This document shows positions 21,737 through 61,159 of a stretch of 64,000 nt of DNA, in pieces (the stretch's first letter is position 1; each line of letters opens with the position of its first letter). Source of the DNA: a virus; the IMG/VR virus record IMGVR_UViG_3300035698_007208, positions 33,927-97,926 of that record; one strand, written 5' to 3'. Both the position numbers and the translations under genes were made by a program. The notes below the pieces were generated by a model. That model was not told the DNA's origin and did no database searches. It saw nothing but the letters and a program-made list of their open reading frames with translations.

Positions 21737-21739
21737 AAT

Positions 21740-28332: not shown

Positions 28333-28335
28333 CGT

Positions 28336-31192: not shown

Positions 31193-31911
31193 TGCAATTT
31201 TTAAGTTTTAGTGAATTTCCTGGCATTACTGGAAAGACTATCTATACTAAGCTATTTGACTACTACGGCATTAATGCGTCGTATACTCCAATGAAGACTG
31301 CATCAATAAAAGATAGTATAGACAGCCTGGATCTTTCGGTAATTGCAGGATTTAGTGTTAGCATGCCATTCAAAAAAGACATAATACCGTTATTAGATAT
31401 AGCAGACCAGTCAGTTGTTGATTATAATTCATGCAATACAGTGTTAGTACGCGATAGCAAACTATACGGTTATAATTGTGATTTGTCAGGTGTAATTAAT
31501 GCTTCGCAGCATGTATTGTCGTTATACGGTCTCGAATCGCGTATTATTATTTTAGGACAAGGAGCAATGGGTCAAATGTTTGAAACATATTTGAGGCGGA
31601 TTGGTTTCACAAATATAACATTTTACTCTAAGAATTTGAACTGGAATGAGCGCCACGCTGACGCTGAGATATTGATTAACTGTACTCCTTACGGTACACC
31701 AGATTCGCAAAGTCCAATAGCGTTTTTAAATAAATATATAGTAGCAGTAATTGACTTAGCAATCAAACCTGGCAATTTAGCTGCTCAATGCAAGTCAATA
31801 AATTATGTATCTGGATATGAGTTTTATAAACACCAATTTTTAGAACAATTTAAGGTTTACACTAATATAACAATAACCTCCGACATAATCAATAAGGTAA
31901 TAAATGAGTAG
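31192..31911 (+). CDS. Shikimate dehydrogenase (AroE)-like enzyme
   Basis: A 239-residue protein. It contains GFSVSMPFKKDI with the family Lys (Lys61), NTVLVRDSKLYGYNCDLSG with the catalytic Asp (Asp97), and a Rossmann turn ILGQGAMGQMF (122-127). The AroE family reduces 3-dehydroshikimate or related cyclic ketones with NAD(P)H. It is shorter than host AroE (about 270) and the N-terminal substrate motif SKSP is not recognisable, so a related polyol or cyclitol may be the substrate. TAATG coupling ties it to the kinase-nucleotidyltransferase. Confidence 0.75.
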   Translation: MQFLSFSEFPGITGKTIYTKLFDYYGINASYTPMKTASIKDSIDSLDLSVIAGFSVSMPFKKDIIPLLDIADQSVVDYNSCNTVLVRDSKLYGYNCDLSGVINASQHVLSLYGLESRIIILGQGAMGQMFETYLRRIGFTNITFYSKNLNWNERHADAEILINCTPYGTPDSQSPIAFLNKYIVAVIDLAIKPGNLAAQCKSINYVSGYEFYKHQFLEQFKVYTNITITSDIINKVINE

Positions 31912-32884
31912 ATTTAAATTAGGAATAGGCCCAATGAGCGACATGATCATTCAATCCAGCTTTGACTATGCATCAACGGCGCAGAAAGACGTAATGCTTA
32001 TCGCAAGCAGAAACCAAATTGATTATAATAGTGGCTATGTTATGTCTACTTCTGAACTACAGCAAAAATTTGCAACATTTGATAAAACACACGTTATGGT
32101 GTGTAGGGATCATTGTGGTCCATATTTTCTAGACACTGAAAAGAATATTTCGTTACGTGAGGCAATTCTGTCAACAAAGAAAACTATAGAGCATGACATT
32201 GAAAATGGCTTTGATTTAATTCATATTGACACTAGCCGATGTGATAATCAATATGCGGTAGCTGAGGAACTGTTTAATTTTAGTATTAGACTTAACCCTA
32301 ATATAAAGTTTGAATTTGGAACTGAAGAAAATGTTGGTGTTGCAGCAGCGACACAAAAGTTTAAAGATGACATTGCCTTTGCGTCACAAGTACCAAATAT
32401 GGTATATGTAGTAGCACAAACCGGAAGCCTTACTATGGAAGATCGACAAATTGGTAGTTTTGATGTACCGTGGGTAAATAGGCTAGTACAAGAAGCAAAT
32501 GCATCAGGTGTTAAATTAAAAGAACATAATGCTGATTACTTAACTGTCGATCAGATAAAATTACGCAAGAATGCAGGTGTACATGCATGTAATATTGCAC
32601 CGCAGCTTGGTGTAATACAAACAAATATAATATTAAAATTAGCAAAACAATATAAAATAGATACTACTGCATTTAAGCAACTTGTGCTATCTAGCAACAA
32701 GTGGACTAAATGGCACCTTACTGGAAATGATGATGTTAAGATACGAATTGCAGGACATTATTGTTTTAATAGTAAGGAGTATCGTGAACTTGAAGACGCG
32801 ATATCGGTATACTGTGACGTGTATGCAGCAGTTAAGCAAGGAATTACTACATGCTTGGCCGCGTATTACGATAACCAGGAATAG
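31904..32884 (+). CDS. GatZ/KbaZ-like (tagatose-bisphosphate aldolase subunit family) protein
   Basis: A 326-residue TIM-barrel-type protein. LGIGPMSDMIIQSSFDYAS, MLIASRNQIDYNSGYVMST and VMVCRDHCGPYF match the opening strands of the class II tagatose-bisphosphate aldolase non-catalytic subunit family (GatZ, KbaZ, AgaZ), with later IHIDTSRCDN. The family is shorter here than the usual 420 residues. In hosts these proteins support or carry out aldol chemistry on ketose phosphates. In this operon the enzyme probably makes or cleaves the sugar or polyol skeleton that is then reduced, phosphorylated and activated by its neighbours. Confidence 0.7.
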   Translation: MSRFKLGIGPMSDMIIQSSFDYASTAQKDVMLIASRNQIDYNSGYVMSTSELQQKFATFDKTHVMVCRDHCGPYFLDTEKNISLREAILSTKKTIEHDIENGFDLIHIDTSRCDNQYAVAEELFNFSIRLNPNIKFEFGTEENVGVAAATQKFKDDIAFASQVPNMVYVVAQTGSLTMEDRQIGSFDVPWVNRLVQEANASGVKLKEHNADYLTVDQIKLRKNAGVHACNIAPQLGVIQTNIILKLAKQYKIDTTAFKQLVLSSNKWTKWHLTGNDDVKIRIAGHYCFNSKEYRELEDAISVYCDVYAAVKQGITTCLAAYYDNQE

Positions 32885-32887
32885 ACT

Positions 32888-33028
32888 ATGAAAGATTTAA
32901 ATAATGAAGATGAAGATAATGATATTAAGTTAGATGCTGATAAAAAAGAAAAGCAGCTTGAAGAAAAGAAAAAACTTGAAAAGAAAATTGCTGAGATGCG
33001 TAAGCGAGACCCATTCATTTATAAATAG
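32888..33028 (+). CDS. 46-aa charged protein ending in RDPFIYK
   Basis: ATG 32888 follows AGGAATAG and the frame runs to TAG 33026-33028. The protein is a highly charged helix (Asp/Glu first half, Lys/Glu second half) ending KRDPFIYK. The final codons ATT TAT AAA TAG form a perfect TATAAATA late promoter box for the next gene, so the C-terminus is constrained at the DNA level. Too short for assignment. Confidence 0.6.
   Translation: MKDLNNEDEDNDIKLDADKKEKQLEEKKKLEKKIAEMRKRDPFIYK
33020..33027 (+). promoter_or_regulatory. T4-type late promoter box TATAAATA
   Basis: An exact match to the T4 late consensus, embedded in the last codons of the 46-residue gene and nine bases before the carbamoyltransferase ATG at 33037. 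Confidence 0.65.
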
Positions 33029-33036
33029 GCAAGGTA

Positions 33037-34614
33037 ATGATTAGAACAATTTTAGGTGTCAGTTTTGGCTTCCACGATGCTGCTGTCTCTGTGGTTAACT
33101 ATGACACTGGTGAAATACTATTCGCATCACAAGCAGAAAGATATAGTAAAATAAAGAATGATCCGTGGTTACATGACGATCTAATTGCCAAAGCATTAAC
33201 TTACGGTAATCCAATTGTTATTGCGGTTAACGAAAACCCCTACCTCAAAAAACTAAGTCAGCTACGGTCTGGGCAGTTTCGAGAGGCATTACTTGGACCC
33301 ATGCCAAGCAAATGGCTTAATTTTTATCCCGAACTTAACGGAGTGCCGATTCAATATTACGGACATCATGAAAGTCATGCTGCTGCCGGATTATACGCAA
33401 TGGGATTAAATACGTTTGTTAAGACTGCTGGTAGAATGCGCTTTGGTATAGGGAGCGTATACGGTCCTGCTCCAATAGCAATAATGGTAATTGATGCGAT
33501 CGGTGAATTAGACACTGCGTCTATATGGAGTACAGACCATAACTTTAAACTTATTAAAGAAAGCTCAATCAAGTACCCAAACAGTTTGGGATTGTTTTAC
33601 ACTGCAATGACTCAGTATTTGGGGCTTAAGCCAATGGAAGACGAGTATATACTAATGGGCATGGCTGCTTATGGCAATAAAGAACGAGCATTTGCGCTGG
33701 CACAGCATTTAGGTAAAACATACTTTGTAGACGACAACAACAATCCTATGAAGGCTCGTGTAAATTTACATCGAGGATTACCTTATGACAGTGTGTTAGA
33801 AGAAGCAGATCAATTTGACATTGCACTAGCTACTCAAATTGAATTTGAAAGTCGCATGATGCGCTATGCTAAAGAAGCAAGCAACGTAAGCAATAACTTA
33901 ATTTATATGGGTGGGTGTGCATTGAATTGTGTTGCTAATACGCGACTGTCTGAACTATTTGATTCTGTGCAAATTATGCCTAATCCAGGAGATGCTGGTA
34001 GCTCATTGGGAGCCGCTGCATTGTCATACTTTAAACGAACTAATAAATTTTTGTCTGGATGGTCTCCTTATTTGGGACATGGCATTGTTGGAAAATATCC
34101 TGTTGATAAAGTGATCACTGCACTGTGTGAAAGTGGCATATGCGGAGTAGCAAATGGCAAGGCAGAATTTGGTCCTCGTGCATTAGGCAACCGCAGTTTG
34201 CTTGCTGACCCTAGAGATCCAACTATTAAAGATAGAGTAAATAAGATTAAGAAGCGGCAAGAATTTAGACCATTTGCTCCTATGATATTAGACAGTCACT
34301 TATCCCATGAGTTTGAAGTACCTTTGACTGCTAACCCAAACGAATTTTTATATATGCAACAAGCAGTAAAATGCAGAAACCCAGAGAAGTATCCGGCCAT
34401 AGTCCACGCAGACGGAACAAGTCGTGTACAAGTGGTTACCAAAGAGGCCCATCCTGAACTACATAAATTACTTTCAGAATGGAATAGAATAACTGGGTGT
34501 CCTATGTTGCTTAATACTAGCTTAAACATTAAAGGACAACCAATAGTAAATGATGAACAAGATGCTTATGATTTTGCAGAAAAGTACCAAGTTTCAGTGG
34601 TTACGTGTAAATAA
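33037..34614 (+). CDS. NodU/CmcH-family O-carbamoyltransferase
   Basis: A 525-residue enzyme of the carbamoyltransferase family, which uses carbamoyl phosphate and ATP to put a carbamoyl group on a hydroxyl of a sugar or antibiotic. Visible are VSFGFHDAAVSVV (9-20), the metal-site YYGHHESHAAAGLY (107-120), the sugar-kinase-like YMGGCALNCVANTRL and the C-terminal domain with FGPRALGNRSLLADPRD and KRQEFRPFAP. All hallmark residues are present and the length is normal, so the enzyme should be active. It has its own late promoter box and probably decorates the product of the preceding pathway. Confidence 0.9.
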   Translation: MIRTILGVSFGFHDAAVSVVNYDTGEILFASQAERYSKIKNDPWLHDDLIAKALTYGNPIVIAVNENPYLKKLSQLRSGQFREALLGPMPSKWLNFYPELNGVPIQYYGHHESHAAAGLYAMGLNTFVKTAGRMRFGIGSVYGPAPIAIMVIDAIGELDTASIWSTDHNFKLIKESSIKYPNSLGLFYTAMTQYLGLKPMEDEYILMGMAAYGNKERAFALAQHLGKTYFVDDNNNPMKARVNLHRGLPYDSVLEEADQFDIALATQIEFESRMMRYAKEASNVSNNLIYMGGCALNCVANTRLSELFDSVQIMPNPGDAGSSLGAAALSYFKRTNKFLSGWSPYLGHGIVGKYPVDKVITALCESGICGVANGKAEFGPRALGNRSLLADPRDPTIKDRVNKIKKRQEFRPFAPMILDSHLSHEFEVPLTANPNEFLYMQQAVKCRNPEKYPAIVHADGTSRVQVVTKEAHPELHKLLSEWNRITGCPMLLNTSLNIKGQPIVNDEQDAYDFAEKYQVSVVTCK

Positions 34615-37600
34615 TGTTTGATATATATTACGTGGGAACCAATAACGCAATGCAAGATGCTATGCCATCAGCAATTTGCATTTCTAATAAAACAGAAATT
34701 AAGGCTAATACAAAAATGTATTGGTTTATTGATGCTGATATAGAAATACTTGATTATTCAGTATTTGACTACACGCCACCAAATTACGACAAGAATTATG
34801 AGCATGTTTGGAAACAAAACAGCCAAACATATGGAGGTGTTCGACTTTTCCCTAAGACTAAAGTTATCGGTGTAAAGGAAGTTAATAAGGTAGTATGTAA
34901 GCAAACATTTGGTATACTTTATGAGCAAAACCCAGGCAATTATTTTCAAAATAATTTACATGCATCTCATGTATGGTGTGTTGATCCAGACTATAAGATA
35001 AACGACAATATCAATTGGGCCCCAAGCGAGTTTGAGCCTAATTATATACACAGTTTCCACTTGCGTAGTCAGCTCGAATACAAGTATCCGGACGATGAAG
35101 GAGGCATAAAGCTTTTTCCACGATCATGGAAAACATCCTCTACTAAATTTCATGGGTTTATCGACGCAAGTGTACATTATCCTATCGTGTTCTCTCGGAA
35201 TGTTACTGATTATGCCCAATGCGAATGGGGCCAACATGATTACGTGTGGTTAATTGATGCAGATTACAAAATTGATAATAAGACTGTTGACTGGGCTCCT
35301 AATCCATTTGAGGACCAAATGATTCATTCATTTAAAATGCCACACCAATTACAAGAAAAATATCCTCAAGCGATGGGTGGAATCAGATTAGTGCCACGTA
35401 GATGGGACATAGCAGAAACAAAAATACACATATCGTGTCCAATAGACGACGAAAATTATGATGTATTTTATGTAGATGACGATGAGTTTACAGCAGAAGC
35501 ATATACTGGCTATGCAAGTCGAAGTAAAACAGAATGGTTTTGGATTGTAGATCGTGACTTTCAATTTAACGGTAAGCTACTATATGTTCCTTCCTTTCAT
35601 GAAAGAGAGTACATACATGTATTTAAGGTTCCCGGCCACTTAGACGCTCGCTATCCTGCAACCATTACTGACGCGTGGGATAACAGGTGTGGTGGTATTC
35701 GGTTAATGCATAAGAACTTTGATATGACCAAACATAAGTATCAAGAACATGTAATTCCAGTTAAATATGATATTTTTTATACTAGCGACCCGACTGCTAA
35801 TTTAAGCAAGTGCGCTAAGAAAAGTAGATCAAAAATGTGTTGGGTGATTGACGACAAATACGCCATTAACAATGTTCTTAATTATGTGCCTACTCGCGAC
35901 GAGCAGCATTACTTGCTTAATTTTAAAATAATAGATCAATTGCAACACATATATCCTGAACAAGAAGGAGGTGTATGGCTTGTACCAAAAAATTATAATG
36001 AAAACACATCTATAAAATATAAAGACAAATTAAATATCAGCAGTAAACAGTATCCAATCTTATTTGTAGACGACGTAGATGATTACTCTGATGTAACTGA
36101 AGAATGTTGGTTAATAGATAAAGAATATCAAATTAACGATGCTATTGATTGGGTACCTAGTAATTTTGAAAGAGATTTTATTCATTCATTTCATATCCCA
36201 AATCAATTAATACACAAGTATCCATTTAAAATGGGCGGAGTTCGTTGGGTACCTAAAAACTGGGAATCTGCAGAAATAAAAATACATGATGATTCCCTGT
36301 TCTCATCACCAGTGTTTGAGGTTTACAATAATGAAGCTATTGGACGGCTTGCTACTACAAAAGATTGGTTTTGGGTAGTAAGTGATAGTGTTACATGCTT
36401 AGAGACATTTAATTTTAACTTTGTACCAAACGTATGGGATGATGGCAAAACGCACATATGGCAAAAGTTGAATCCAATTACGAATCGCCAATATGATTAT
36501 TCAGGTGTAAGTTTATGCCCTAAAGTGCAATCAAACACGGGCCGACCAAAATATATGCGACAGCCTGCTTGTACACAAAATGAATACCCAATATATTACC
36601 TAGTACCATCTGATTACGATAACCCGTTACAGCAAGCCTACGAGCGTCTGAGCAACAGAACAGAGGAAGACATGTACTGGGTAGTAGACGTGCTTACGCA
36701 AATCAGTCCAGAATTTGATTTTGGCTATTACCCTACTAATTGGGACATTAATAACATTCATATTTTTAGTGACGATATGGGAGAAAGAAAAGGTGTTAGG
36801 CTTGTACCTAAATCTTTATTCTTAAAACACAAATATACTGATGTAGAGATTTTAAATAATAGTTTTAATAAGTTAAAATATATCAACAATGTTGCGAGCA
36901 CTAAACCAGTATGGCCAGTGATTAACTTGGCACGAGTAGAAAAGGATGATTTTGTAAACACAATGAAGGCCGCAGTAACACCCTTTGTTTGGACCATTGA
37001 TTCTGATATTAAAGTTAATCAGGCCATACTGGAAAAAGGCTATATACCAGAAATTGCAGACTTAAAAAAAGTACATTGTTGGCAAAAACTTAACCCAAAT
37101 ACAGGTAAAGTTCATTCTTATGGTGGATTAAGATTATGGCCAACATCGGAAGATTACAGTAGTATTACAGCCTCATCAATTGAGCTAAATAAATTAAAAA
37201 ATTTAAAGTATATCAAGGACAACGGCAGCTCAATAAAGCCACTAGATATACTTTTTATTGCATACAATGACACAGCAGCTTACCGCAAGCATGCAGCATT
37301 AAGAGAACGTTTTGGCAATGTACGAATGGTTAATGGTGTAGATGGTATATTTGAGGCACACCAGGTTGCAGCTCGTATGGCAAATTCAGACATGTTTTGG
37401 GTAATAGACGGCGATGCTATTATTGAAGATGATTTTAATTTTAATTACTTGCCTGACGTGTATGATAAAGACGTAGTGCATGTATGGTCAAGTAAGAACC
37501 CAGTTAATAATTTAGTATACGGTTACGGGGGAATTAAACTATTACCAACACACATGGTCAGGGATGCAACAAGTTGGGGATTAGATTTTACAACTGGACT

Positions 37601-37907
37601 CAGTAATCGGATTAAAGTAATGCCCGAAATAAGTTGCACTACTGCATTTAATACTACAGCGTTTGATACTTGGAGATCAGCATTTAGGGAAAGTGTTAAA
37701 TTGTCAATATCGCAAGACCCAGATGCACCATCACGTCTAGCTGCTTGGCTAACCCCAATCTTAGATGCTGATTTTTCTTCCTTTGCAAAATTGGGTGCAG
37801 AACATGGAAAAGCGTTCGGAATTCAACACATAAATAATACAGAACAGTTAAATAATATTAATAACTACAGTTGGCTAGAGAAAAGGTTCGCAGAATGTCA
37901 AATATAA
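34614..37907 (+). CDS. Ten-repeat protein built of a GT-A-like module (1,097 aa)
   Basis: The protein is ten diverged copies, each 80-110 residues, of one module: a Y-D/P-I-x-F/Y strand, W-x-I/V-D-x-D followed by Y-x-I-N, then W-x-P, HSFH/HVW, QL-x-x-K/R-Y-P and a closing GG-I/V-R/K-L-x-P. The acidic triad is intact in units 1-4, 9 and 10 (DAD, DPD, DAD, DRD, DSD, DGD) and degenerate in units 5-8. Unit 10 has a 140-residue C-terminal extension (AFRESVKLS) shared with the separate gene at 18139-19113. The triad and fold pattern point to nucleotide-sugar binding, but the repeats look more like a scaffold or lectin array with one or a few active units. TAATG coupling to the carbamoyltransferase places it in the glycan pathway. 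Confidence 0.75.
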   Translation: MFDIYYVGTNNAMQDAMPSAICISNKTEIKANTKMYWFIDADIEILDYSVFDYTPPNYDKNYEHVWKQNSQTYGGVRLFPKTKVIGVKEVNKVVCKQTFGILYEQNPGNYFQNNLHASHVWCVDPDYKINDNINWAPSEFEPNYIHSFHLRSQLEYKYPDDEGGIKLFPRSWKTSSTKFHGFIDASVHYPIVFSRNVTDYAQCEWGQHDYVWLIDADYKIDNKTVDWAPNPFEDQMIHSFKMPHQLQEKYPQAMGGIRLVPRRWDIAETKIHISCPIDDENYDVFYVDDDEFTAEAYTGYASRSKTEWFWIVDRDFQFNGKLLYVPSFHEREYIHVFKVPGHLDARYPATITDAWDNRCGGIRLMHKNFDMTKHKYQEHVIPVKYDIFYTSDPTANLSKCAKKSRSKMCWVIDDKYAINNVLNYVPTRDEQHYLLNFKIIDQLQHIYPEQEGGVWLVPKNYNENTSIKYKDKLNISSKQYPILFVDDVDDYSDVTEECWLIDKEYQINDAIDWVPSNFERDFIHSFHIPNQLIHKYPFKMGGVRWVPKNWESAEIKIHDDSLFSSPVFEVYNNEAIGRLATTKDWFWVVSDSVTCLETFNFNFVPNVWDDGKTHIWQKLNPITNRQYDYSGVSLCPKVQSNTGRPKYMRQPACTQNEYPIYYLVPSDYDNPLQQAYERLSNRTEEDMYWVVDVLTQISPEFDFGYYPTNWDINNIHIFSDDMGERKGVRLVPKSLFLKHKYTDVEILNNSFNKLKYINNVASTKPVWPVINLARVEKDDFVNTMKAAVTPFVWTIDSDIKVNQAILEKGYIPEIADLKKVHCWQKLNPNTGKVHSYGGLRLWPTSEDYSSITASSIELNKLKNLKYIKDNGSSIKPLDILFIAYNDTAAYRKHAALRERFGNVRMVNGVDGIFEAHQVAARMANSDMFWVIDGDAIIEDDFNFNYLPDVYDKDVVHVWSSKNPVNNLVYGYGGIKLLPTHMVRDATSWGLDFTTGLSNRIKVMPEISCTTAFNTTAFDTWRSAFRESVKLSISQDPDAPSRLAAWLTPILDADFSSFAKLGAEHGKAFGIQHINNTEQLNNINNYSWLEKRFAECQI

Positions 37908-41936: not shown

Positions 41937-43346
41937 TTAAGAAGACTTTTTATTTTGGTGGGAATATGGAACGGTGACTCCATATGGTGCTTTTGGAGAA
42001 GTACCATCCTTTTTACCATGTACAATAAATAATGTTTCACAGTAATGTTCATCTCCCCAACCACCATATGGGTACCCATCTGTAAACATGATAAACTTTT
42101 TAGGCTCAATCCCCTCACTTTTCATAAATTCCCAGTTAGGCAAGAAATCAGTGCCACCAAATCCAGCTAATTCATAATCTAATAAGCCTTCTTGGTTAGC
42201 TTCAGTAAATTTTTGTGGGTTATGCACTTCAGTATCAAAGCACCAAAGACTTAAACTAAACTCTGGGTATGATTCCATAATACCATTAACTTCAGAGAGG
42301 AAGTCTCTTAACATTTCTTTACTAATACTGCCAGAAGTATCAATTGCAATTGCAACATCAATAGTTTCATCATTATCCATTCCTGGCAAGTAAATTCCTT
42401 GATCCATTCCTTTCCTGCTAAATCGCATAAAATTATAATCATTCTTAATTATACTTTTAATTTCCATAGCAAGATACTCACGCCAATCAATTTGCGGATT
42501 AAGCAAGTGATCAAGCATTCGCTTAACACCACCTGGTAAATTACTTGCTCCAGCAGCTTGCGCGGCTTGTATAACAGCATTTCGGAAGTTGTTTGCTATT
42601 TGCTCCTTCTCTTCCTCAGTGTATCTAGCCGGGCCGCTTTCACCATTTTCGCCATCCTCGCCATCAGAACCTTCATCGTCACCAGCACCACGGTCCATGT
42701 GTGTGTCCATTAATACTTGTCCGCCTGTGCCTTGTCCACCATTTTTTCGAGCTTCATCATACAACATATCATATACGTTTTCTGATGTCATTCCTTTATA
42801 TTTACTATCGTAGCAAATATTAATGAGTGTAATTTTAGTACCAATTTTACCTTCAACTAGTTCATAATTGATAACATAGTCATTTGCTATGTTCCATAAT
42901 ATTGGAATTCTGTCACCTCGTCTGTCACCGTCCATGTGGTCATACACGCAATGCATTACCTCGTGGCCTACTAGGAACACAGTTTCTTGATCACTTAATG
43001 CAGCAACAAAATTGCGATTGTAGTAAAAATACTTACCATCTGTGCCAGCAGTTTGAATTTGTCCGCCTGGCCAGTCAGTGGCGTCCCTTAGTATAAGACG
43101 AGTTGCTAAGTTTCCAAAAAACGGCGCATCCATTAACATACCGATTCGCGCTTTAATTAGTTTACGTTCAATTTGGGTTGCTGTTAGCTCAGTAACTGGT
43201 ATATTGAGTGGAGGTGGTTGATTTGGGTCTTGTGCATCGCCTGCATTATGGCCGGCAGTAGTGGTAGGAGTAGATGATTTAGCCTCACTAAATGTGTAGC
43301 TTTTTTTAGCGTAGCTGTTGCGTAATCTTCTGTTTATCCTTGGCAT
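41937..43346 (-). CDS. VWA-domain protein with metallopeptidase-like N-terminus (469 aa)
   Basis: The N-terminal half (about 55-300) carries an HExxH zinc motif (H128-E-V-M-H132, in GHEVMHCVYDH), as in the putative metallopeptidase part of VWA-like proteins. An acidic Gly/Asp/Glu linker lies around 219-240. The C-terminal half is a von Willebrand A domain with the MIDAS motif DTSGS (336-340) and a later FGGTDF and FTDGYP. It pairs with the MoxR ATPase at 43520-44644. MoxR-VWA pairs act as metal-dependent chaperones or activators. In T4-like marine phages their target is unknown. Confidence 0.85.
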   Translation of the reverse strand: MPRINRRLRNSYAKKSYTFSEAKSSTPTTTAGHNAGDAQDPNQPPPLNIPVTELTATQIERKLIKARIGMLMDAPFFGNLATRLILRDATDWPGGQIQTAGTDGKYFYYNRNFVAALSDQETVFLVGHEVMHCVYDHMDGDRRGDRIPILWNIANDYVINYELVEGKIGTKITLINICYDSKYKGMTSENVYDMLYDEARKNGGQGTGGQVLMDTHMDRGAGDDEGSDGEDGENGESGPARYTEEEKEQIANNFRNAVIQAAQAAGASNLPGGVKRMLDHLLNPQIDWREYLAMEIKSIIKNDYNFMRFSRKGMDQGIYLPGMDNDETIDVAIAIDTSGSISKEMLRDFLSEVNGIMESYPEFSLSLWCFDTEVHNPQKFTEANQEGLLDYELAGFGGTDFLPNWEFMKSEGIEPKKFIMFTDGYPYGGWGDEHYCETLFIVHGKKDGTSPKAPYGVTVPYSHQNKKSS

Positions 43347-43375
43347 GATTGTTCCTTATTAATGTATATGTATAT

Positions 43376-43403
43376 ATTATAGCATGATTTATAGTGCAGT
43401 CAA
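43376..43403 (-). promoter_or_regulatory. Sigma-70-like promoter (TTGACT-16-TATAAT)
   Basis: -35 TTGACT (43398-43403) and -10 TATAAT (43376-43381), preceded by TGC as an extended -10. A leader of about 23 bases with AAGGAAC precedes ATG 43346. Confidence 0.85.
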
Positions 43404-43431
43404 CATTATAATTTAACCTACCATGCGATCA

Positions 43432-43456
43432 AATTAAAAAGCCCTGTTGCCAGGGC
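43432..43456 (-). terminator. Intrinsic terminator after moxR-like gene
   Basis: The minus strand reads GCCCTGGCAACAGGGC followed by TTTTTAATTT: a 6-bp GC stem, 4-base loop and T-run. It separates the MoxR gene from the VWA gene promoter. Confidence 0.88.
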
Positions 43457-43519
43457 CCAAAACCTTATGCTATATAGTAGGAGTAACATAGGTAGGCGCA
43501 CAAGGTTTATGCTTGTTAC

Positions 43520-44644
43520 TTAAACAATTAAGTCTAAGTATTCTCGGTTAAACGTATCCATTAATTCTGTATCAAGGACCTTGCGGAAGTTGAAACGGAT
43601 TTGGTAGTCTTTCATCATTGTTTGGAACAATAACACTACCATTTCAGGATTAAAGTTATTAAATGCAAATCTAGACACGTTATTGATATACTTATAGCAT
43701 GCTTCAAGACCTTCATTTTTAAAGATTTCGTTAATTTCGTAAGCCATGCTTACAGTTAACGTGTATTTAGCTGAAATCTCTTCAGCTACTTTGCCTTCAA
43801 GTTTTGTTACTTTTCCTGCAAGGATGTCTGAAGGATTGGGAAGAAACGCTGCAATTTTTCGGTGTTCTCCAAATTTTGCAGCAACACCTTCACCAACTGC
43901 ACCAGCAATTTCAGTTTTTTGTTCAGTATCTGATGCAGCATGGAAGCTAGGAATTTTTAGCATTTCATTAACATAAACCCAAGAACGGGGAGTTGCAAAA
44001 GCATGCCCACTGCTTGTAGGATTAAAGTTAAACAAGTCTTGTTTAGCAAAAGACATGTAACCAATAATCTCAGGAGCAATATTGTTCATCAGCGCCCACT
44101 GTCTCCAATCTTTAAAGTTAACTTCCATTTCAATATGGCGGAAACGGTTAGCTAATGGAGAAGGCATTTTGTATGTGGTGCCACGGTCAGTATCTCTGTT
44201 ACCAGCTGCCACAATGCGTACATTGTCTGGTAGTAAATATTGACCAATTCTTTTGTTAAGAACTAATTGGTATGCTGCGGCTTGTACACTTTGCGGAGCA
44301 CTGTTCATTTCATCTAGGAAAAGTATAACAGTATCGTATTGGGCTGCTAATTCAGCAGAGGGTAAGTCAACAGGCGGCGCCCATTCCATTTGATTTGTTT
44401 CGTTATTACGGAAAGGATATCCGCGAAGATCAGTTGGTTCCATTAAAGCCAAGCGTAGATCAATAATTAATACTTTTTCACCTAATCCATTAGATGGATC
44501 TTTACCAAGGTCGGCAACCATCTCGCTTTTACCAATACCTGGCGGTCCCCAAATAAACATTGGGCGATTAGCTAGCATGGCGCGAAGAATAATTGGTTTT
44601 GCTTGTGATGGGCGTGCTGTTAATGACTGTATTGCATTTGACAT
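43520..44644 (-). CDS. MoxR-family AAA+ ATPase (374 aa)
   Basis: Walker A GPPGIGKS (33-40), Walker B ILFLDEMNSA (107-116), sensor 1 RIVAAGNRDTDRG and a MPSPLANRF arginine-finger region fit the MoxR AAA+ family. It acts as a hexameric ATP-driven remodeller, normally with a VWA partner; here the partner is the next gene downstream, which has its own promoter. Length is normal. A perfect-consensus early promoter and AGGAGTAAC ribosome site suggest high expression, which fits a takeover or assembly-chaperone role. The target is unknown. Confidence 0.87.
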   Translation of the reverse strand: MSNAIQSLTARPSQAKPIILRAMLANRPMFIWGPPGIGKSEMVADLGKDPSNGLGEKVLIIDLRLALMEPTDLRGYPFRNNETNQMEWAPPVDLPSAELAAQYDTVILFLDEMNSAPQSVQAAAYQLVLNKRIGQYLLPDNVRIVAAGNRDTDRGTTYKMPSPLANRFRHIEMEVNFKDWRQWALMNNIAPEIIGYMSFAKQDLFNFNPTSSGHAFATPRSWVYVNEMLKIPSFHAASDTEQKTEIAGAVGEGVAAKFGEHRKIAAFLPNPSDILAGKVTKLEGKVAEEISAKYTLTVSMAYEINEIFKNEGLEACYKYINNVSRFAFNNFNPEMVVLLFQTMMKDYQIRFNFRKVLDTELMDTFNREYLDLIV

Positions 44645-44714: not shown

Positions 44715-44743
44715 ATTATAGCATCAATGTTTTAACATGTCAA
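44715..44743 (-). promoter_or_regulatory. Perfect-consensus sigma-70 promoter (TTGACA-17-TATAAT)
   Basis: TTGACA (44738-44743), 17-base spacer, TATAAT (44715-44720), preceded by TGC. This is the strongest promoter match in the window. It lies about 70 bases before the MoxR ATG. Confidence 0.93.
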
Positions 44744-49199: not shown

Positions 49200-49227
49200 A
49201 TTATACACTCAACAGTATAGATGTCAA
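49200..49227 (-). promoter_or_regulatory. Sigma-70-like promoter (TTGACA-16-TATAAT), leaderless
   Basis: TTGACA (49222-49227) and TATAAT (49200-49205). Only six bases (AACTGT) separate the -10 from ATG 49193, so transcription should start on or next to the start codon. Confidence 0.85.
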
Positions 49228-52866: not shown

Positions 52867-52894
52867 ATTATACACTATTATTTTGGTTTGTCAA
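52867..52894 (-). promoter_or_regulatory. Sigma-70-like promoter (TTGACA-16-TATAAT)
   Basis: TTGACA (52889-52894) and TATAAT (52867-52872). The leader before ATG 52823 is rich in AAT triplets and carries AGGAAAACAG. Confidence 0.88.
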
Positions 52895-52901
52895 TCACAA
52901 A

Positions 52902-52922
52902 AATGGGACCTTAGGTCCCATT
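52902..52922 (-). terminator. Intrinsic terminator after nadV
   Basis: AATGGGACC and GGTCCCATT form a 9-bp stem with a 3-base loop, followed on the minus strand by TTTTTGTG. It ends 25 bases after the NadV stop and just before the nuclease promoter. Confidence 0.9.
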
Positions 52923-52946: not shown

Positions 52947-54470
52947 TTAACCAACGGCTGATCTTAATTGCACATGGGCTTGAATTAATGCTGCTTCTCG
53001 CGCCGCACCGTCTTCAGTACGTCCCCGGACTTCAGCAAGCGTAGTTTCATTAAACAATCTTCCATTGTGATAAAGAAGTTCCATGGCGTCCTCGAACCCT
53101 TCTGGAATTGGACCTTGGTCCAATCGACCAGTAACCAGTTCACCTGTTTCTAAGTTGCGCAGTAACGTCATTACGCCTTCTTTGGACTTTTTGCCACTAT
53201 CAGTAATTGGGTCTTTAGCAATACCAATCCATTCACCATCCATCAATATACAAGATGCCTTCTGTGCAAACTTTAGCGTGTCTCGATTAACTTTTTGTAA
53301 CAATGCACCACCTGATCCAAATATTACAACATCTGCACTGTAATTTAACACACCTGTAACTTTACCAAGCAACGATTCTAATGAGCGTGAGTCAATACCG
53401 TCACCTTGGATAACACCAACGTAGTTAATAGACTTAAAGCCCTTAGCAGTCATTGTGAATCCAAACGCCTCTTCTTGCATTTTAAGAAGCCTAGGAACAA
53501 CAACCATCATGTCACCCGAGTCTGGACGAAATACTACCTTGCATCCTGATGCAATAATTTGGTCTTTAAATTCTGTACATAGCAATTCGGCTTCTCGGTA
53601 CACATCATAACCGTCAATGACAATACTAATAATTGTATTAGGCAGTGCGTTGGATAATACCTTAGTTAAGTATGCTCTTGCACCTTCAATGTCTCCACCA
53701 AATGAGCACTCAATGGAGTGTTCAGTTGCAAATACACTAAATGCTGCCATTGGTTCTTTATAGTAAAAATTCGATGTTAATGTTCCTTCAATGTTGTCGG
53801 AACCCATGAAGTTTACTGTGTGCGATGCTCCACCAATCTCAGCTTGTTCTGCACACGAAACACCTCGGCCACCAAAATCATGCAATGCGAAGGGAAGCAA
53901 GTCCATATTGGCACCTGTTCTTTCGTAAAATCCTTTAATTATTTTCTTTACTTCATACCCCTGTGTCGCAATAGTAGTTGGATACCAAACGCCACGCTGG
54001 ATAATAGTCTCAAAGCCAGCAGACATCCAGGCTAAGTCTTCATCAATAACGGTAATGTTGTATATAGGCTGGCTTCCATTCATTACTGTGCCTTCTGGAA
54101 CAGCGCGAATCATTAGTGGCATCGCACCACCATATACCTCAACTACCTTTACCCACGCTTTTCTATCAAATAGTTTCCGACCAAAGTGTGCAATAGCAAA
54201 TTCTTCAGCAGCATCAATATCTGCATGTGTAATTCTCATTGTGCCGTAACGTTTTAGAAATAATTGCATACCAAATGGCACAATTGTTTCTCTTGAGTCT
54301 ATGCGCGATTCACCGTATGATGACATACCGCCAATTCCATCCTTATATGCAAACGGGTGGCTAAATTTATAGCTATCCATTCTGCAAATTAGTGATATGG
54401 CCAACTGATCGTCTTGCACGTATTCATTGTCTGTGTCTTTTGGTTCAAACGCCTTCATTATATCTGTCAT
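52947..54470 (-). CDS. nadV: Nicotinamide phosphoribosyltransferase (NadV/NAMPT)
   Basis: A 507-residue enzyme making NMN from nicotinamide and PRPP. Hallmarks of the NAPRTase/NAMPT family are DSYKFSHPFAY near the N-terminus, GYEVKKIIKGFYERTG, LHDFGGRGVSCAEQAEIGGASH, VIDGYDVY, VVFRPDSGD for the phosphate-binding region and GVIQGDGID. Length fits NAMPT (about 490). With the NadM-Nudix gene at 55049-56170 it forms the two-step nicotinamide-to-NAD route known in phages as NARP2, which restores NAD depleted by immune NADases. Early promoter at 55004-55031 upstream of the intervening gene. Confidence 0.93.
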   Translation of the reverse strand: MTDIMKAFEPKDTDNEYVQDDQLAISLICRMDSYKFSHPFAYKDGIGGMSSYGESRIDSRETIVPFGMQLFLKRYGTMRITHADIDAAEEFAIAHFGRKLFDRKAWVKVVEVYGGAMPLMIRAVPEGTVMNGSQPIYNITVIDEDLAWMSAGFETIIQRGVWYPTTIATQGYEVKKIIKGFYERTGANMDLLPFALHDFGGRGVSCAEQAEIGGASHTVNFMGSDNIEGTLTSNFYYKEPMAAFSVFATEHSIECSFGGDIEGARAYLTKVLSNALPNTIISIVIDGYDVYREAELLCTEFKDQIIASGCKVVFRPDSGDMMVVVPRLLKMQEEAFGFTMTAKGFKSINYVGVIQGDGIDSRSLESLLGKVTGVLNYSADVVIFGSGGALLQKVNRDTLKFAQKASCILMDGEWIGIAKDPITDSGKKSKEGVMTLLRNLETGELVTGRLDQGPIPEGFEDAMELLYHNGRLFNETTLAEVRGRTEDGAAREAALIQAHVQLRSAVG

Positions 54471-54517
54471 CTTAAAACTCCTTTAAGTTAATGCCTTAGG
54501 TATATCCTTAGGACTTG

Positions 54518-54937
54518 TTAAACATCTAATGCTATTTTTTCTTCTTCAGTTAATTTTGCAAGACCAGACTTCTTTAATATGTTTCTTTCTCTAGTCTGGA
54601 CTTCATTTTTTTCACGCAATAAGTCTGCTACTTGATGTTTTTGCCACCAATCAGCAAGCTTTCTTGCTTCTGGATTTCGACCATCGTAAATAAGTTTATT
54701 TCCTTCATCAGTGCCTTCTAACTGCTTGAGCCAACTACACAAATGATCAGTCATTTTGTCTAATTCTTTAACCATACCATAAGTGTCATTTATCGCTACT
54801 TGTATAGCTTGTGTATTGTATCGTTCATGAGGCCGATTAGTTGTGCCCGAGCATTGCAAATAATTTATATGTTTTGCTACACGTATACTTTCTTTTTCTT
54901 TGGCAGTTGGTTCCATGTAATCATTTCTGCATCCCAT
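54518..54937 (-). CDS. Phage protein of unknown function between nadV and nadM (139 aa)
   Basis: An all-helical, charged protein (MEPTAKEKESIRVAKHINYL, LCSWLKQLEGTDEGNKLIYDGRNPEARKLADWWQKHQ) with GGAGAAAGC before ATG 54937. It is familiar from marine phages without function. Its place between the two NAD genes makes it a candidate accessory factor of that pathway. First gene behind the inverted-repeat promoter. Confidence 0.65.
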   Translation of the reverse strand: MGCRNDYMEPTAKEKESIRVAKHINYLQCSGTTNRPHERYNTQAIQVAINDTYGMVKELDKMTDHLCSWLKQLEGTDEGNKLIYDGRNPEARKLADWWQKHQVADLLREKNEVQTRERNILKKSGLAKLTEEEKIALDV

Positions 54938-55003
54938 TATGCTTTCTCCAATAAATCAATGTTAATTGTTGTGTTCACGTTATTACTAATTTTTAATGCA
55001 TTT

Positions 55004-55041
55004 ATTATAACACTTGATGTAACATAGTCAAGTGTTATAAT
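55004..55041. promoter_or_regulatory. Promoter embedded in a perfect 14-bp inverted repeat
   Basis: ATTATAACACTTGA (55004-55017) and TCAAGTGTTATAAT (55028-55041) are perfect 14-bp complements with a 10-base spacer. The minus-strand promoter TTGACT (55026-55031), 16 bases, TATAAT (55004-55009) lies within it, so -35 and -10 each fall in one arm. A dimeric repressor site or an mRNA hairpin ending the NadM transcript are both possible; the T-run is absent. Confidence 0.85.
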
Positions 55042-55048
55042 ATCAATA

Positions 55049-56170
55049 TTAGTCCTGTCCGTTCTCACCGGTAAAGTATGATAAGATTTCAAAGTGATCC
55101 TCAAAGCAGTCTTCTGAGTTAACATCAGCAATAGGTATCCATTGTGCTTTTTCTGCATCATCACTTCCTTTTACTTTAGGCAACTCTGTACCGTTAGGTA
55201 GTTCGATGTAAAAAGCATGTGTAATAGTGCGCCCTCTAGCAGAACGATCAATTGCATCAAATACTTTATCTTTTGTAATATTGCCTACTAGTACTGGTGT
55301 TGGTACTTTAAGTTTAGTTTCTTCTCTAAGTTCTCTAATAGCTGCATCTTGTACGGATCGATCAGTGCTTGCATTTACAAAGCCACCTGGAAAAGCCCAT
55401 AATCCTTTACCTGGGTAAGCCCGCCGCTTAATAAGCAATACATGTGCATTTTGCGTAACAACTGCATCAGCGGTAGAGAATATAACGTCATATGGTAAGC
55501 TTGCGTAAGGCTTCTTATAATTGCTAGTAAATTCTTTTTCAGCCATAACTGTCTCAAACCCTTCTGAATTTCTCCATTCGGCCAAGTATTTAATGATTGC
55601 TGGCGGCACAACCCCTGTAAGGAAGTTAAGATTTGCATTCCTTTGGAAATACAAAGCCCTAATATCTGTCGCGTCTAATACTTCCATTAATTGGTGATCA
55701 AGTCTATCCCACTGTGGAAACATATCTAAGTAAAAAGTAGAAGGGTCTTGGCTTTTTTTATGCCCTACTACCACAACCTTAGCTGTACTACTTTGCTTAT
55801 TTAATACTTCGTTTACAATATTATGAGTTCGAATTAACCAAGCACCGTCTGTGTAACGGGTGTCTACATTGCTTCTAAAAACAATACAGTCCATGTTAAC
55901 ACCGCGCTCTTGTAATGCAAGAGTAATCATTTCTTCTCGTTCAACTACATTCCAGGGATTTTTGTATACCCGGGGCTGGTATGCAGATCCAAATATGATA
56001 AGAACTTTTTTTGCAACTTTAAGTGCATCAATTACGGTTTGAATGTGTGCATTATGCCCGCACTGAAATCTTCCAATAAAAACGGCTAAATCATGGGTTA
56101 GTACATAACCTGGATCGTGATCAGACCAGCTTGAAGTTTTGGTTACACTTGGTATTGTTATATTACTCAT
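55049..56170 (-). CDS. nadM: Bifunctional NMN adenylyltransferase/Nudix hydrolase (NadM-Nudix)
   Basis: A 373-residue protein. Residues about 26-200 are a NadM-type adenylyltransferase with FIGRFQCGHNAHIQ (33-44, the HxGH-like ATP site) and the ISSTxxR-like region replaced by LDATDIRALYF. Residues about 225-373 are a Nudix domain with GGFVNASTDRSVQDAAIRELREET (REL-x-EE helix complete; the first Glu of the consensus box falls on Arg271). It makes NAD from NMN and ATP; the Nudix half may hydrolyse ADP-ribose. With NadV it gives a full NARP2 route. ATGA overlap with the upstream gene. Confidence 0.9.
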   Translation of the reverse strand: MSNITIPSVTKTSSWSDHDPGYVLTHDLAVFIGRFQCGHNAHIQTVIDALKVAKKVLIIFGSAYQPRVYKNPWNVVEREEMITLALQERGVNMDCIVFRSNVDTRYTDGAWLIRTHNIVNEVLNKQSSTAKVVVVGHKKSQDPSTFYLDMFPQWDRLDHQLMEVLDATDIRALYFQRNANLNFLTGVVPPAIIKYLAEWRNSEGFETVMAEKEFTSNYKKPYASLPYDVIFSTADAVVTQNAHVLLIKRRAYPGKGLWAFPGGFVNASTDRSVQDAAIRELREETKLKVPTPVLVGNITKDKVFDAIDRSARGRTITHAFYIELPNGTELPKVKGSDDAEKAQWIPIADVNSEDCFEDHFEILSYFTGENGQD

Positions 56171-56499
56171 GTTACGTCTCCCTTTATTAGTTCGTAAATT
56201 TCAATAGCGCGATGAGGTGCAATTCCTTCAAAATTGCAATGGTCTATAATTTGGTCAGCTTTTTTTAGCCACGTGGTGTGTGCATACTGATTCCATTGTG
56301 GTTTTGCATCTTTGAATTCATAATCCCACCCGCATTCATCCACGTGGTTCCATTTACACAAGAGTTTATGTAATTTTTCTGCAAGTTGTCTATTAGGTGC
56401 TTGTAACTTTGATTCTGTAAGGGCAATTCTTGCAATAGAGAGTTTATGTTGTAGCTCCGCTATTTCTTTAGTAAGATCTAATGCTGTTTTGTATGACAT
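56167..56499 (-). CDS. Coiled-coil-like protein of unknown function (110 aa)
   Basis: The first 60 residues are helical with heptad-like spacing (LTKEIAELQHKLSIARIALTESKL), then CKWNHVDECGWDYEFKDAKPQWNQYAHTTWLKKADQI. Cys and Trp residues might bind metal. The start codon lies at the foot of a 9-bp hairpin that exposes the ribosome site in its loop. Function unknown. Confidence 0.6.
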   Translation of the reverse strand: MSYKTALDLTKEIAELQHKLSIARIALTESKLQAPNRQLAEKLHKLLCKWNHVDECGWDYEFKDAKPQWNQYAHTTWLKKADQIIDHCNFEGIAPHRAIEIYELIKGDVT

Positions 56500-57222: not shown

Positions 57223-57250
57223 ATTATAACATAAGTAGCCATTGTGTCAA
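57223..57250 (-). promoter_or_regulatory. Sigma-70-like promoter (TTGACA-16-TATAAT), leaderless
   Basis: TTGACA (57245-57250) and TATAAT (57223-57228); six bases (ATCAAT) separate the -10 from ATG 57216. Confidence 0.85.
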
Positions 57251-58026: not shown

Positions 58027-58917
58027 TCATGTTCCCCAACTGTTGCCAAATAGTTGTATATGCAGTCTAGGACTAAATTTATATCCTGTTTTCATGCATG
58101 TCTCAACAACTTCTGATTCAGTTAAGGTGTATTGTTCTAACGTTGCGCCTTCGGGCATGCAAAAAACAGCGTCTAAATGTACACCGTTTTCTTTATAAGT
58201 ATTAACATATACGTCAACTTCATCAAAGTCTTCTGCGTCCCTTACTACAAATTTATTGTATAAGTAGCTGTTCTTTACTTTGTTCATACTAAGCAACGGT
58301 GAATAGGCCAATGTATCTTCTCTAGTCTCGCCACTAATAGATAGCTTAGGAGAGGTGCTCCACGTTACATGTATATTCTGCCCTTCAGCATAATGATTAA
58401 AAAAGTCTCGTAATTCATCAATTACCATCTGTGTGCCGTTTGTTTCAAAAGTAACGTTGCGTAGTCCATTAGCGTAGCATAGAGACAATAGCTCGGGCCA
58501 CACACGTTGCCATCCTAGCAAAGGTTCACCTCCAGTAATAACCAAGTGAATGTCTTCCCCACCACTACCAGTAAATGTCCTGTTAGGCAGCAAGTCACAT
58601 ATTTCTTCGTAAACCTCTTCGACAGTTTGTGTTTTTTGTAAGTGCTTATACTTCATCGCCCAGCTTGCTGAGCTATCGCATCCCACTAATGTAACAGGCA
58701 ATTCTTCGATACTTGTGTATGCTTCTGGATGATTCTTATCTGCTTTTGGGTCAATCATGTAAGGCATTTGGTCAGTAGCAATCATATTACCTTTAGGTTG
58801 TCCGAATCCTGCACACGTTAAGTTACAACCGAACGTTCTTAAAAATATACTAGGGATGCCAACAAATCGACCTTCTCCTTGTATACTGTAAAATATTTCA
58901 CTATATCTTAACTTCAT
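58027..58917 (-). CDS. queE: 7-carboxy-7-deazaguanine synthase (QueE), phage type
   Basis: A 296-residue radical SAM enzyme that ring-contracts carboxy-tetrahydropterin to CDG in the preQ0 route. SEIFYSIQGEGRFVGIPSIFLRTFGC is diagnostic. The cluster cysteines are Cys31, Cys35 and Cys80: the usual C-x3-C-x2-C is split by a 44-residue insertion, with the third Cys in VGCDSSASW. ITGGEPLLGW is the SAM-binding loop. The insertion is typical of T4-like marine phage QueE and longer than host enzymes. With FolE at 60002 it supplies part of a 7-deazaguanine pathway; QueD and QueC are not in the window. Confidence 0.9.
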   Translation of the reverse strand: MKLRYSEIFYSIQGEGRFVGIPSIFLRTFGCNLTCAGFGQPKGNMIATDQMPYMIDPKADKNHPEAYTSIEELPVTLVGCDSSASWAMKYKHLQKTQTVEEVYEEICDLLPNRTFTGSGGEDIHLVITGGEPLLGWQRVWPELLSLCYANGLRNVTFETNGTQMVIDELRDFFNHYAEGQNIHVTWSTSPKLSISGETREDTLAYSPLLSMNKVKNSYLYNKFVVRDAEDFDEVDVYVNTYKENGVHLDAVFCMPEGATLEQYTLTESEVVETCMKTGYKFSPRLHIQLFGNSWGT

Positions 58918-59471
58918 TAATTAAATAAGTTCCTTAATCTTTCCATTTCATCGGCATCAGCCCTTGTTACTGACTGTCCAATGTGGTTAGTATCTACGTG
59001 GTGTAGATTTTGTGTTTTCTTCCAATCAGCAACCGCAATAATAAGCTTTCCATTCAAAGATAGTGCGCTATCACCAAAGCTAATAATTTTGCTATTTGGC
59101 CAACATGCAGGACGAATTTCAAAAACATGCGCCATTGCTGCTACAGGGTCCATTCCCTGTTGAACTAAAATAATTGCAGCTAACGCAGTAGATCTACTCA
59201 TACCTGCAGAGCAGTGAATTAAAACCTTATCATTTTTTTTAAACTGCTCTGCAAATTTTAGTACAGCTTCTATATGCTGAGCCTCAGGTATGTTGTAGTC
59301 TGCAGGATCGCAACCATCAATACTAATGTCATCAATATTAACTACAAGGTGCCGGTCAGGCGTTTTACCTAAAATTGGACTGTATCCGTTACCTAATGCA
59401 CTTATTACATAGTCAAAGTTAACAGCAATCTTCTTAGCTTCACTAAGACTACTAATCGTTATTTTAGTCAT
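58917..59471 (-). CDS. Dual-specificity (tyrosine) phosphatase family
   Basis: A 184-residue protein with the P-loop HCSAGMSRS (Cys87, Arg93) of Cys-based phosphatases and the preceding VVNIDDIS region. Family members remove phosphate from Tyr/Ser/Thr or from small molecules. It overlaps QueE by one base and its upstream neighbour by 8. Target unknown; regulation of host proteins or nucleotide handling are possible. Confidence 0.82.
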   Translation of the reverse strand: MTKITISSLSEAKKIAVNFDYVISALGNGYSPILGKTPDRHLVVNIDDISIDGCDPADYNIPEAQHIEAVLKFAEQFKKNDKVLIHCSAGMSRSTALAAIILVQQGMDPVAAMAHVFEIRPACWPNSKIISFGDSALSLNGKLIIAVADWKKTQNLHHVDTNHIGQSVTRADADEMERLRNLFN

Positions 59472-60001: not shown

Positions 60002-60682
60002 TTAATTTCCACTATGTCCTTTCATTGTATTCAGAATGTTGTAAAATTCTGCCTTCAATGCTGGATCAGTTTGAAAATAACCTTTCATAATAGCAGTAGT
60101 CATATCGCTTTCATGCTCCTTAACTCCACGGTGAGTCATACAGTGGTGTTCTGCTTTAAGTACAACAGCAACATGCTCTGTTTCTGCATACTGTGCAAGT
60201 GCCGCGGCAATTTGTGTAGTCATCTCTTCTTGAATTTGTGGACGTTCTGCAATGTGTTGTATAATACGGTTAAACTTGCTTAATCCGATAACACTACCTT
60301 GGGGCATTACACCAACCCAACAATTACCAACAATATTTTGGAAATGATGAGCGCAGGTGCTGCGAATACTAATTGGGCCACTCATATATAGACCATCGTA
60401 TCCTTCGTTAGGAAAGCTTGTTACTCTTGGCGGCGCAACATATCTCCCGCCAAATGTTTCACGTATAAACATTTTTGCTACGCGCTTTGCTGTTTCTTGT
60501 GTATTGTGATCGTTTTGTGTATCTATTACTAAAGCCTCAAGTACTGATTGCATTGCAATTTGCACTTCAGCTTGAAGTGCGTCTAGTTCACCATCATTAA
60601 TATACTTGCTAATATTATCATTACTGTGGAACCGTTCGGCTGCTTCTTGTAATCTTTGTTTAATTATTTTTGATGTTTTCAT
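60002..60682 (-). CDS. folE: GTP cyclohydrolase I (FolE)
   Basis: A 226-residue enzyme that opens GTP to dihydroneopterin triphosphate, the entry to folate and to 7-deazaguanine synthesis. It shows TAKRVAKMFIRETFGG, the zinc site STCAHHFQNIVG, GLSKFNRIIQ, and AEHHCMTHRGV with the second zinc Cys. All key residues are present. Together with QueE this fits a phage preQ0 route for DNA base modification. Starts next to the NADAR gene. Confidence 0.93.
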   Translation of the reverse strand: MKTSKIIKQRLQEAAERFHSNDNISKYINDGELDALQAEVQIAMQSVLEALVIDTQNDHNTQETAKRVAKMFIRETFGGRYVAPPRVTSFPNEGYDGLYMSGPISIRSTCAHHFQNIVGNCWVGVMPQGSVIGLSKFNRIIQHIAERPQIQEEMTTQIAAALAQYAETEHVAVVLKAEHHCMTHRGVKEHESDMTTAIMKGYFQTDPALKAEFYNILNTMKGHSGN

Positions 60683-61159
60683 TTACACAGCACCATTCAA
60701 TTCATCACGAACATCCATTAAGCATTTTCCTAATAAATTTTGCCCTTGCCATTTAGATTCGTCAAAGCGATCAGGATCGTCTGCGCCCATGCCAATACCC
60801 CAAACTACATCGTATGGACTAGCCTCAACCATATGCTTGTTGGCAGTATCAATAAGTGCTTTTTTTAACATTGGGATTTGATTGAATTTGGCACGTATTG
60901 CGTCCTTGACAATTTCATACCTTACTTCGGACCATTTTGCATCATCGTAACCGACAATCTCCCGCCCAATTGCTTTCTGTTCCCTAGGATTTAATGTAGC
61001 CATAACTTTTGCCATGCTATCACTATCGCCAGCAACTTCTGCCTTTTTGTACATCATATACTGCTCAACACAGTTAAACTCTGTGTCCTCTACTATTATA
61101 TTAGTTAGTAGCCAGTTTGAGTATATGCCGCCCCAAAAAAATTCGTATTCATCGTTCAT
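60683..61159 (-). CDS. NADAR-family (YbiA/DUF1768) protein
   Basis: A 158-residue protein. FFWGGIYSNW, CVEQYMMYKKAEVAGD, AIGREIVGYDDAKW, VEASPYDVVWGIG and NLLGKCLMDVRDEL follow the NADAR fold in order. Family members are N-glycosidases of riboflavin-type intermediates (YbiA) or remove ADP-ribose from guanine in DNA, countering DarT1. Position in the same early operon as FolE and close to NadV-NadM supports an ADP-ribose or NAD-linked anti-defence role. Start next to ATGA overlap. Confidence 0.85.
   Translation of the reverse strand: MNDEYEFFWGGIYSNWLLTNIIVEDTEFNCVEQYMMYKKAEVAGDSDSMAKVMATLNPREQKAIGREIVGYDDAKWSEVRYEIVKDAIRAKFNQIPMLKKALIDTANKHMVEASPYDVVWGIGMGADDPDRFDESKWQGQNLLGKCLMDVRDELNGAV

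Follow-up and report, generated by a model that had tools for sequence, protein, structure and literature searches.

An uncultured large T4-like phage with a probable NARP2-type NAD+ salvage pair and a conserved variant Nudix box

Two phage pathways, NARP1 and NARP2, restore nicotinamide adenine dinucleotide (NAD+), and such reconstitution by phages is reported to give protection from systems that deplete NAD (PMC12300627, PMC11984713). In NARP1, which consists of Adps and Namat, the specificity of Namat for ADP-ribose pyrophosphate comes from an adenine clamp (PMC12774641). NARP2 belongs to the core of Schizotequatrovirus (PMC12028318), and in a phage survey every phage with NadM also had NadV (PMC9503650). 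Here, we analyzed a window of 64,000 nucleotides, the final 64 kb of the 97,926-base virus record IMGVR_UViG_3300035698_007208, which encodes both NadV and a NadM-Nudix fusion. We consider it likely that the two genes form a NARP2-type module for NAD+ salvage in this phage, leading from nicotinamide via nicotinamide mononucleotide (NMN) to NAD+, which is probably expressed early and would replace NAD+ that is lost when a defence is activated, or through infection in general. The kind of system is already known; this phage represents a further member, with a Nudix variant that is documented but was previously misread.

The record is linear and is probably only part of a genome. Inspection of the open reading frames (ORFs) in its remainder showed T4-type genes, among them a portal-like protein and the gp46/gp47 recombination pair. 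The major head protein shares 68% identity with its counterpart in Pseudomonas jumbo phages such as PA5oct. From the start of the window to about 39 kb, the plus strand carries structural and sugar-modification genes. Both nadV and nadM belong to a metabolic block that occupies the minus strand between about 64 and 40 kb of the window. An uncultured large T4-like phage joins the many phages known with NAD+ salvage. The two enzyme genes are:

52947–54470, minus strand: nadV, nicotinamide phosphoribosyltransferase (Nampt-like), 507 amino acids (aa), assigned from the ORF, family matches and residues
55049–56170, minus strand: nadM-nudix, 373 aa, NMN adenylyltransferase (NMNAT; residues ~26–200) fused to a Nudix hydrolase (~231–368)

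Both genes named by the first-pass annotation exist as full-length minus-strand ORFs with these ends, each with a good ribosome-binding site, and their family matches lie far beyond chance. NadV passes the NCBIfam model NF006629 (447.9 bits, cut-off 405), which is named nicotinate phosphoribosyltransferase, PRK09198, and matches PHROG 448 with an E value of 5e-123; its closest solved structure is the Xanthomonas Nampt 7yqo (E 3e-110). In an alignment to human and Xanthomonas (Xcc) Nampt, all compared active-site residues are present: D32, Y34, F199, R202 and D225 of NadV correspond to human D16, Y18, F193, R196 and D219, S245, A248 and H251 to S241, A244 and H247, and R315, D317, G356, D357, G388 and R396 to R311, D313, G353, D354, G384 and R392. 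The protein thereby keeps the catalytic histidine (EHS, H251), the motifs RPDSGD and QGDG and the arginine of the partner-subunit loop (R396). In the alignment, NadV lacks the aromatic clamp of Namat: the places of F392, Y396 and T398 in the SPbetaL1 enzyme are taken by A, K and N, close to the A, K and D of Xanthomonas Nampt. NadV reads GSGGALLQ-KVNRD and QGDG, and the Namat pattern G(V/I)GS(F/Y)..Q-..TRD with YGDS was found in three phage genes adjoining a PRPP-synthetase-like gene (PRPP, phosphoribosyl pyrophosphate). Judged by these positions, the substrate clamp is of the Nampt type and not of the Namat type. In addition, the 97.9-kb contig, itself a fragment, gave no PF13793 match for the PRPP-synthetase-like Adps gene, the control matching in 14/14 genomes. 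Because NadV is devoid of the Namat clamp and no Adps was found in the contig, the pair is NARP2-like and not NARP1-like.

The NadM-Nudix protein matches PHROG 395 (E 2e-69) and, over its whole length, the Synechocystis NadM-Nudix enzyme 2qjo (E 4e-77; 44% identity). Identity to the Francisella enzyme (2qjt, 2r5w), which has the same two-domain architecture and the same catalytic motifs, is 33%. A predicted structural model aligned to 2qjo with a Z score of 23.9, and its NMNAT domain to NMNAT structures with Z about 18; the full-length model being of limited confidence (predicted template-modelling score 0.56), only per-domain matches were used. The NMNAT motifs GRFxxxHx(G/A)H and (S/A)TxxR are present as GRFQCGHNAH and DATDIR. 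The Synechocystis and Francisella enzymes have HxGH, whereas NadM has HxAH, like nearly all of its viral relatives. A Nampt/NadV with intact catalytic residues encoded alongside an NMN adenylyltransferase agrees with NARP2, and the complete route from nicotinamide to NAD+ proposed in the first-pass annotation is borne out in this sense. Loss of catalytic residues, which the annotation named as a reason to abandon it, was not seen in the alignments to solved enzymes, the NadV and Nudix residues and the key NMNAT motifs all being present.

The Nudix half is retained, as had been proposed, with R279 and the metal ligands E280, E283 and E284 intact. So is the ADP-ribose-binding stretch VFDAIDRSARGRTITH (VFDxxxRSxRGRTITH), which is near-identical to that of Synechocystis NadM. 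The box itself deviates from the canonical GX5EX7REUXEEXGU and reads GX6DX8REUXEEXKU, with REUXEE kept; its loop is two residues longer than in the canonical box and than in the Synechocystis and Francisella enzymes, and the acidic residue is moved by one position. Counting back from RE, residue 271 at the canonical GX5E position is indeed an arginine, as the first-pass annotation had noted. However, this is not peculiar to the present phage. All 80 nearest viral relatives have the longer loop, with lysine at the old glutamate position in 63, arginine in 15, and asparagine and alanine in one each, and it also occurs in Synechococcus phage B23, Klebsiella K64-1, Cronobacter GAP32 and Serratia BF. 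By contrast, the box is canonical in the KVP40-like Vibrio phage VH7D (GX5EX7RE) and in 68 of the 72 bacterial NadM proteins with a readable box (GX5E). All long-loop sequences (87/87) fit GX6-D-[K/R/N/A/G]-X7-REUXEE. Since the aspartate in the column of residue 270 is invariant in these 87 sequences and the same column is mixed in 78 canonical ones (aspartate in 19), the NadM box is better read as GX6-D-X8-REUXEE, and Asp270 may fill the structural role of the first glutamate, which is thought to stabilise the loop-helix-loop (PMC5389931).

Comparable boxes are on record in NUDT16 (GX5DX8RE) and in Rv1700, the ADP-ribose diphosphatase of M. tuberculosis (GX6EX7RE) (PMC5389931). NUDT16 shares with NadM the aspartate in place of the first glutamate, eight residues ahead of RE. 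It acts itself on capped RNA and nucleotides, and the remaining Nudix domain of NadM is of the NadM-Nudix type, its Pfam Nudt16-like match lying under the cut-off. Conservation over the viral set is higher in the Nudix half (0.89) than in the NMNAT half (0.76), and median ratios of nonsynonymous to synonymous substitution (dN/dS) of 0.06 and 0.075 for the two halves place both under purifying selection, although the ratios are rough, dS being high in many of the 38 pairs. A loss or relaxation of Nudix hydrolysis thus appears unlikely, and a decayed Nudix domain was ruled out by the clade-wide conservation and dN/dS. The variant rather represents a conserved subclass, with the acidic residue shifted by one and a basic residue at the old glutamate position, than damage. 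It offers a well-defined target for asking whether phage NadM-Nudix proteins act on ADP-ribose or on defence signals. As a separate observation, a contig from a metagenome-assembled genome of Methylobacter sp. (L100) encodes a viral-type NadM-Nudix with the box RKLKAET, in which REUXEE is lost, possibly a decayed or non-catalytic copy.

Most viral relatives show the same gene order as this locus, nadV following nadM on one strand. Of the 80 nearest viral loci, 68 have nadV within 5 kb of nadM, in every case on the strand of nadM and in 65 cases downstream of it; the pair is as closely spaced in 62/80 bacterial loci. As in the NARP2/KVP40-type salvage, the two enzymes are the same and NadV is of the Nampt type, but the present locus differs by a NadV of divergent lineage and by a 139-aa ORF between the genes. 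Quick trees of both proteins, with long branches in that of NadV, disagree on this point. In the NadM tree, the window pairs with the viral locus L004 (support 99) within the viral clade. In the NadV tree, it forms an own, fully supported branch with locus L179, outside the group that joins the NadV proteins of the same viral clade with bacterial NadV. Compared with L004, NadM is 61% identical and the neighbouring exonuclease, QueE and FolE are 67–77% identical, but NadV only 41%. The disagreement of the trees and this low identity relative to the neighbours suggest that nadV was replaced by a divergent version. In L179, nadV lies at 4409–5887, and its NadM groups, like that of the window, with the main viral clade. 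Besides that, two jumbo-phage loci (L088 and L095, from Klebsiella K64-1 and Serratia BF) carry a Sir2-like gene and an additional Nudix gene after the nadM-nadV pair. Some jumbo phages have a SIR2 gene next to the pair; none was found in the 97.9-kb contig.

Around the two enzyme genes, the following features were recognized on the minus strand, together with one strandless repeat:

54518–54937, minus strand: 139-aa ORF between the two enzyme genes, function unassigned, PHROG 11759, ribosome-binding site GGAG
56167–56499, minus strand: 110-aa ORF with its stop overlapping the start of nadM, function unassigned, PHROG 12218
57223–57250, minus strand: perfect TTGACA-16-TATAAT promoter, ahead of the genes that lead up to nadM-nudix
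52867–52894, minus strand: perfect TTGACA-16-TATAAT promoter, past nadV and before the exonuclease gene
49200–49227, minus strand: perfect sigma-70 promoter
44715–44743, minus strand: perfect sigma-70 promoter
52902–52922, minus strand: hairpin AATGGGACCTAAGGTCCCATT followed by TTT, ahead of the promoter at 52867–52894
55003–55042, no strand: perfect 15-bp inverted repeat with a 10-nt spacer, between nadM and the 139-aa ORF

The window contains four perfect TTGACA-N(16 or 17)-TATAAT sites, all on the minus strand and in the metabolic block, compared with 0.3 expected, and none of 100 shuffled sequences had four. Looser matching in a scan of the window gave overall counts equal to chance; therefore, only the perfect sites were used. 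These four promoters, on the same strand as nadM and nadV, support early expression, and the nadM-nadV block would probably be read early by the host RNA polymerase. The first-pass annotation had placed both genes in one early block: the promoters speak for the timing, but the genes, on the same strand and 0.6 kb apart, are not adjacent, being separated by the 139-aa ORF. In four other viral loci, a relative of the 110-aa ORF immediately precedes nadM. The hairpin at 52902–52922, which a palindrome scan had flagged on the plus strand only, is a probable intrinsic terminator closing the nadM-nadV unit. Two near-consensus extended -10 promoters, one on the minus strand (55031–55004) and one on the plus strand, overlap with the inverted repeat; the repeat is operator-like and could serve as operator or promoter for the 139-aa ORF and nadV.

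From the sequence we infer the enzyme activities, their timing, the Nudix substrate and a counter-defence role, which could be combined as follows. Early transcription, probably from the host-type sigma-70 promoters, would supply both enzymes. NadV would then convert nicotinamide, a product of TIR, SIR2 or SEFIR NADases, together with PRPP to NMN, and the NMNAT half of NadM would form NAD+ from NMN and ATP, so that NAD+ lost to defence or infection could be replaced. ADP-ribose, which NADases also release, would probably be cleaved by the Nudix half into AMP and ribose 5-phosphate; this step would remove an NADase product and might feed PRPP synthesis by the host.

Several alternatives could account for parts of these observations. 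NARP1 and the present pair would yield the same product, NAD+, and Namat and Nampt are homologous with a common catalytic core (PMC12774641), so that the NadV homologue could in truth be a Namat using ADP-ribose pyrophosphate. Yet alanine and lysine stand at the positions of Namat F392 and Y396, as in Xanthomonas Nampt, QGDG replaces YGDS, the partner gene is nadM, and the predicted intermediate is NMN. Given the clamp residues and the absence of Adps in the contig, this reading was ruled out, and we give it next to no probability. The first-pass annotation supposed that the exchange of glutamate for arginine might alter ADP-ribose hydrolysis; a loss or change of this activity would leave NadM as a plain NMNAT or as a sensor that binds ADP-ribose. 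Residue 271 and the extra length of the box fit this idea, catalysis-free Nudix domains such as NrtR exist, and the NadM model also matches NrtR. Against it stand the retained catalytic residues and binding stretch, the clade-wide occurrence of the variant box with an Asp270 that is invariant where the canonical column varies, the precedents of NUDT16 and Rv1700 (PMC5389931) and the stronger constraint on the Nudix half itself. A change caused by the arginine is not supported, and we regard a lost or changed hydrolysis as unlikely. A more speculative, and in our estimate quite improbable, proposal is that phage NadM proteins with GX6-D-[K/R]-X7-REUXEE form a virus-specific Nudix subclass in which the lengthened loop and the basic residue retune the substrate from plain ADP-ribose to another defence product, such as an ADP-ribose signal in cyclic or modified form. 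One protein would then both remove an immune signal and make NAD+, here paired with a NadV from a separate lineage.

The same enzymes might also serve general metabolic augmentation, enlarging the NAD(H) pool available to a large phage for making nucleotides, ligating DNA and replicating, with counter-defence being secondary. The module lies among nucleotide and cofactor genes, such as those for FolE, QueE, a phosphoribosyltransferase and a flap-exonuclease-like protein and not in a known anti-defence cluster, and nadM-nadV pairs are common in bacterial chromosomes as ordinary salvage. However, the published protection by phage NAD+ reconstitution (PMC12300627, PMC11984713) and a same-strand NADAR gene, described below, point to a conflict over NAD and ADP-ribose. 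We see a considerable, though less than even, chance for augmentation as the principal function; the two roles are not mutually exclusive. Other points weigh against a counter-defence salvage module of the NARP2 kind as such. NadV sits on a long branch, is about 41–45% identical to its usual counterparts and has one close relative among the sequences found, so that its preference may have shifted. NadM remains under the NCBIfam equivalog cut-offs, although NadM/Nudix models reach E 1e-104, and the NMNAT motif GRFQP is GRFQC here.

A further gene related to NAD and ADP-ribose, absent from the first-pass annotation, is located 4.5 kb upstream of the pair on the same strand, directly before FolE and one base from it:

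60683–61159, minus strand: NADAR domain gene of the YbiA type (glutamate in the VEAS..D..W motif), PF08719, E 2e-46

In an alignment to 8bau, a glutamate stands at the equivalent of E125, and E43, K50, R79, W89, R93, D130 and W133 are present; the roles of the residues in YbiA-type NADAR are taken from PMC11543638. A BC4488-type (DarT1-associated) NADAR, first suspected from an aspartate in the last strand, was ruled out: the residue that tells the types apart lies in the EAS..D..W motif (PMC11543638), where the BC4488 type has aspartate and the window glutamate, and the residues do not fit the T4 gp30.3 type (histidine). NADAR genes adjoining NadM/NadV in phages have been noted before (PMC9503650). 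For example, NADAR lies between nadM and nadV in one viral locus (L082) and beside nadM in phage XacN1. With its presence in 2/14 related records, it is not supported as a fixed part of the module. It would best be described as an accessory NAD/ADP-ribose gene that has no established place in the pathway and might provide de-ADP-ribosylation close to the genes for NAD salvage. Given its position directly ahead of FolE, it may alternatively take part in pterin or riboflavin-type chemistry.

The surroundings contain other gene groups. FolE (60002–60682, minus strand) and a QueE-like protein (58027–58917, minus strand) are parts of the 7-deazaguanine route and might contribute to DNA modification; QueE adjoins a dual-specificity phosphatase-like protein (58917–59471, minus strand) with the active-site loop HCSAGMSRS. 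At 41937–44644 on the minus strand, a DUF2201 metallopeptidase/VWA-like protein, for which the PHROGs label of HNH endonuclease has no backing from its Pfam match, adjoins a MoxR-like AAA ATPase. On the plus strand, the tail-fibre region is followed by an extended series of sugar and modification genes (20384–37907), which includes a UDP-glucose dehydrogenase, a radical SAM protein, several glycosyltransferase-like proteins, a Nol-like carbamoyltransferase and a repetitive protein of 1097 aa.

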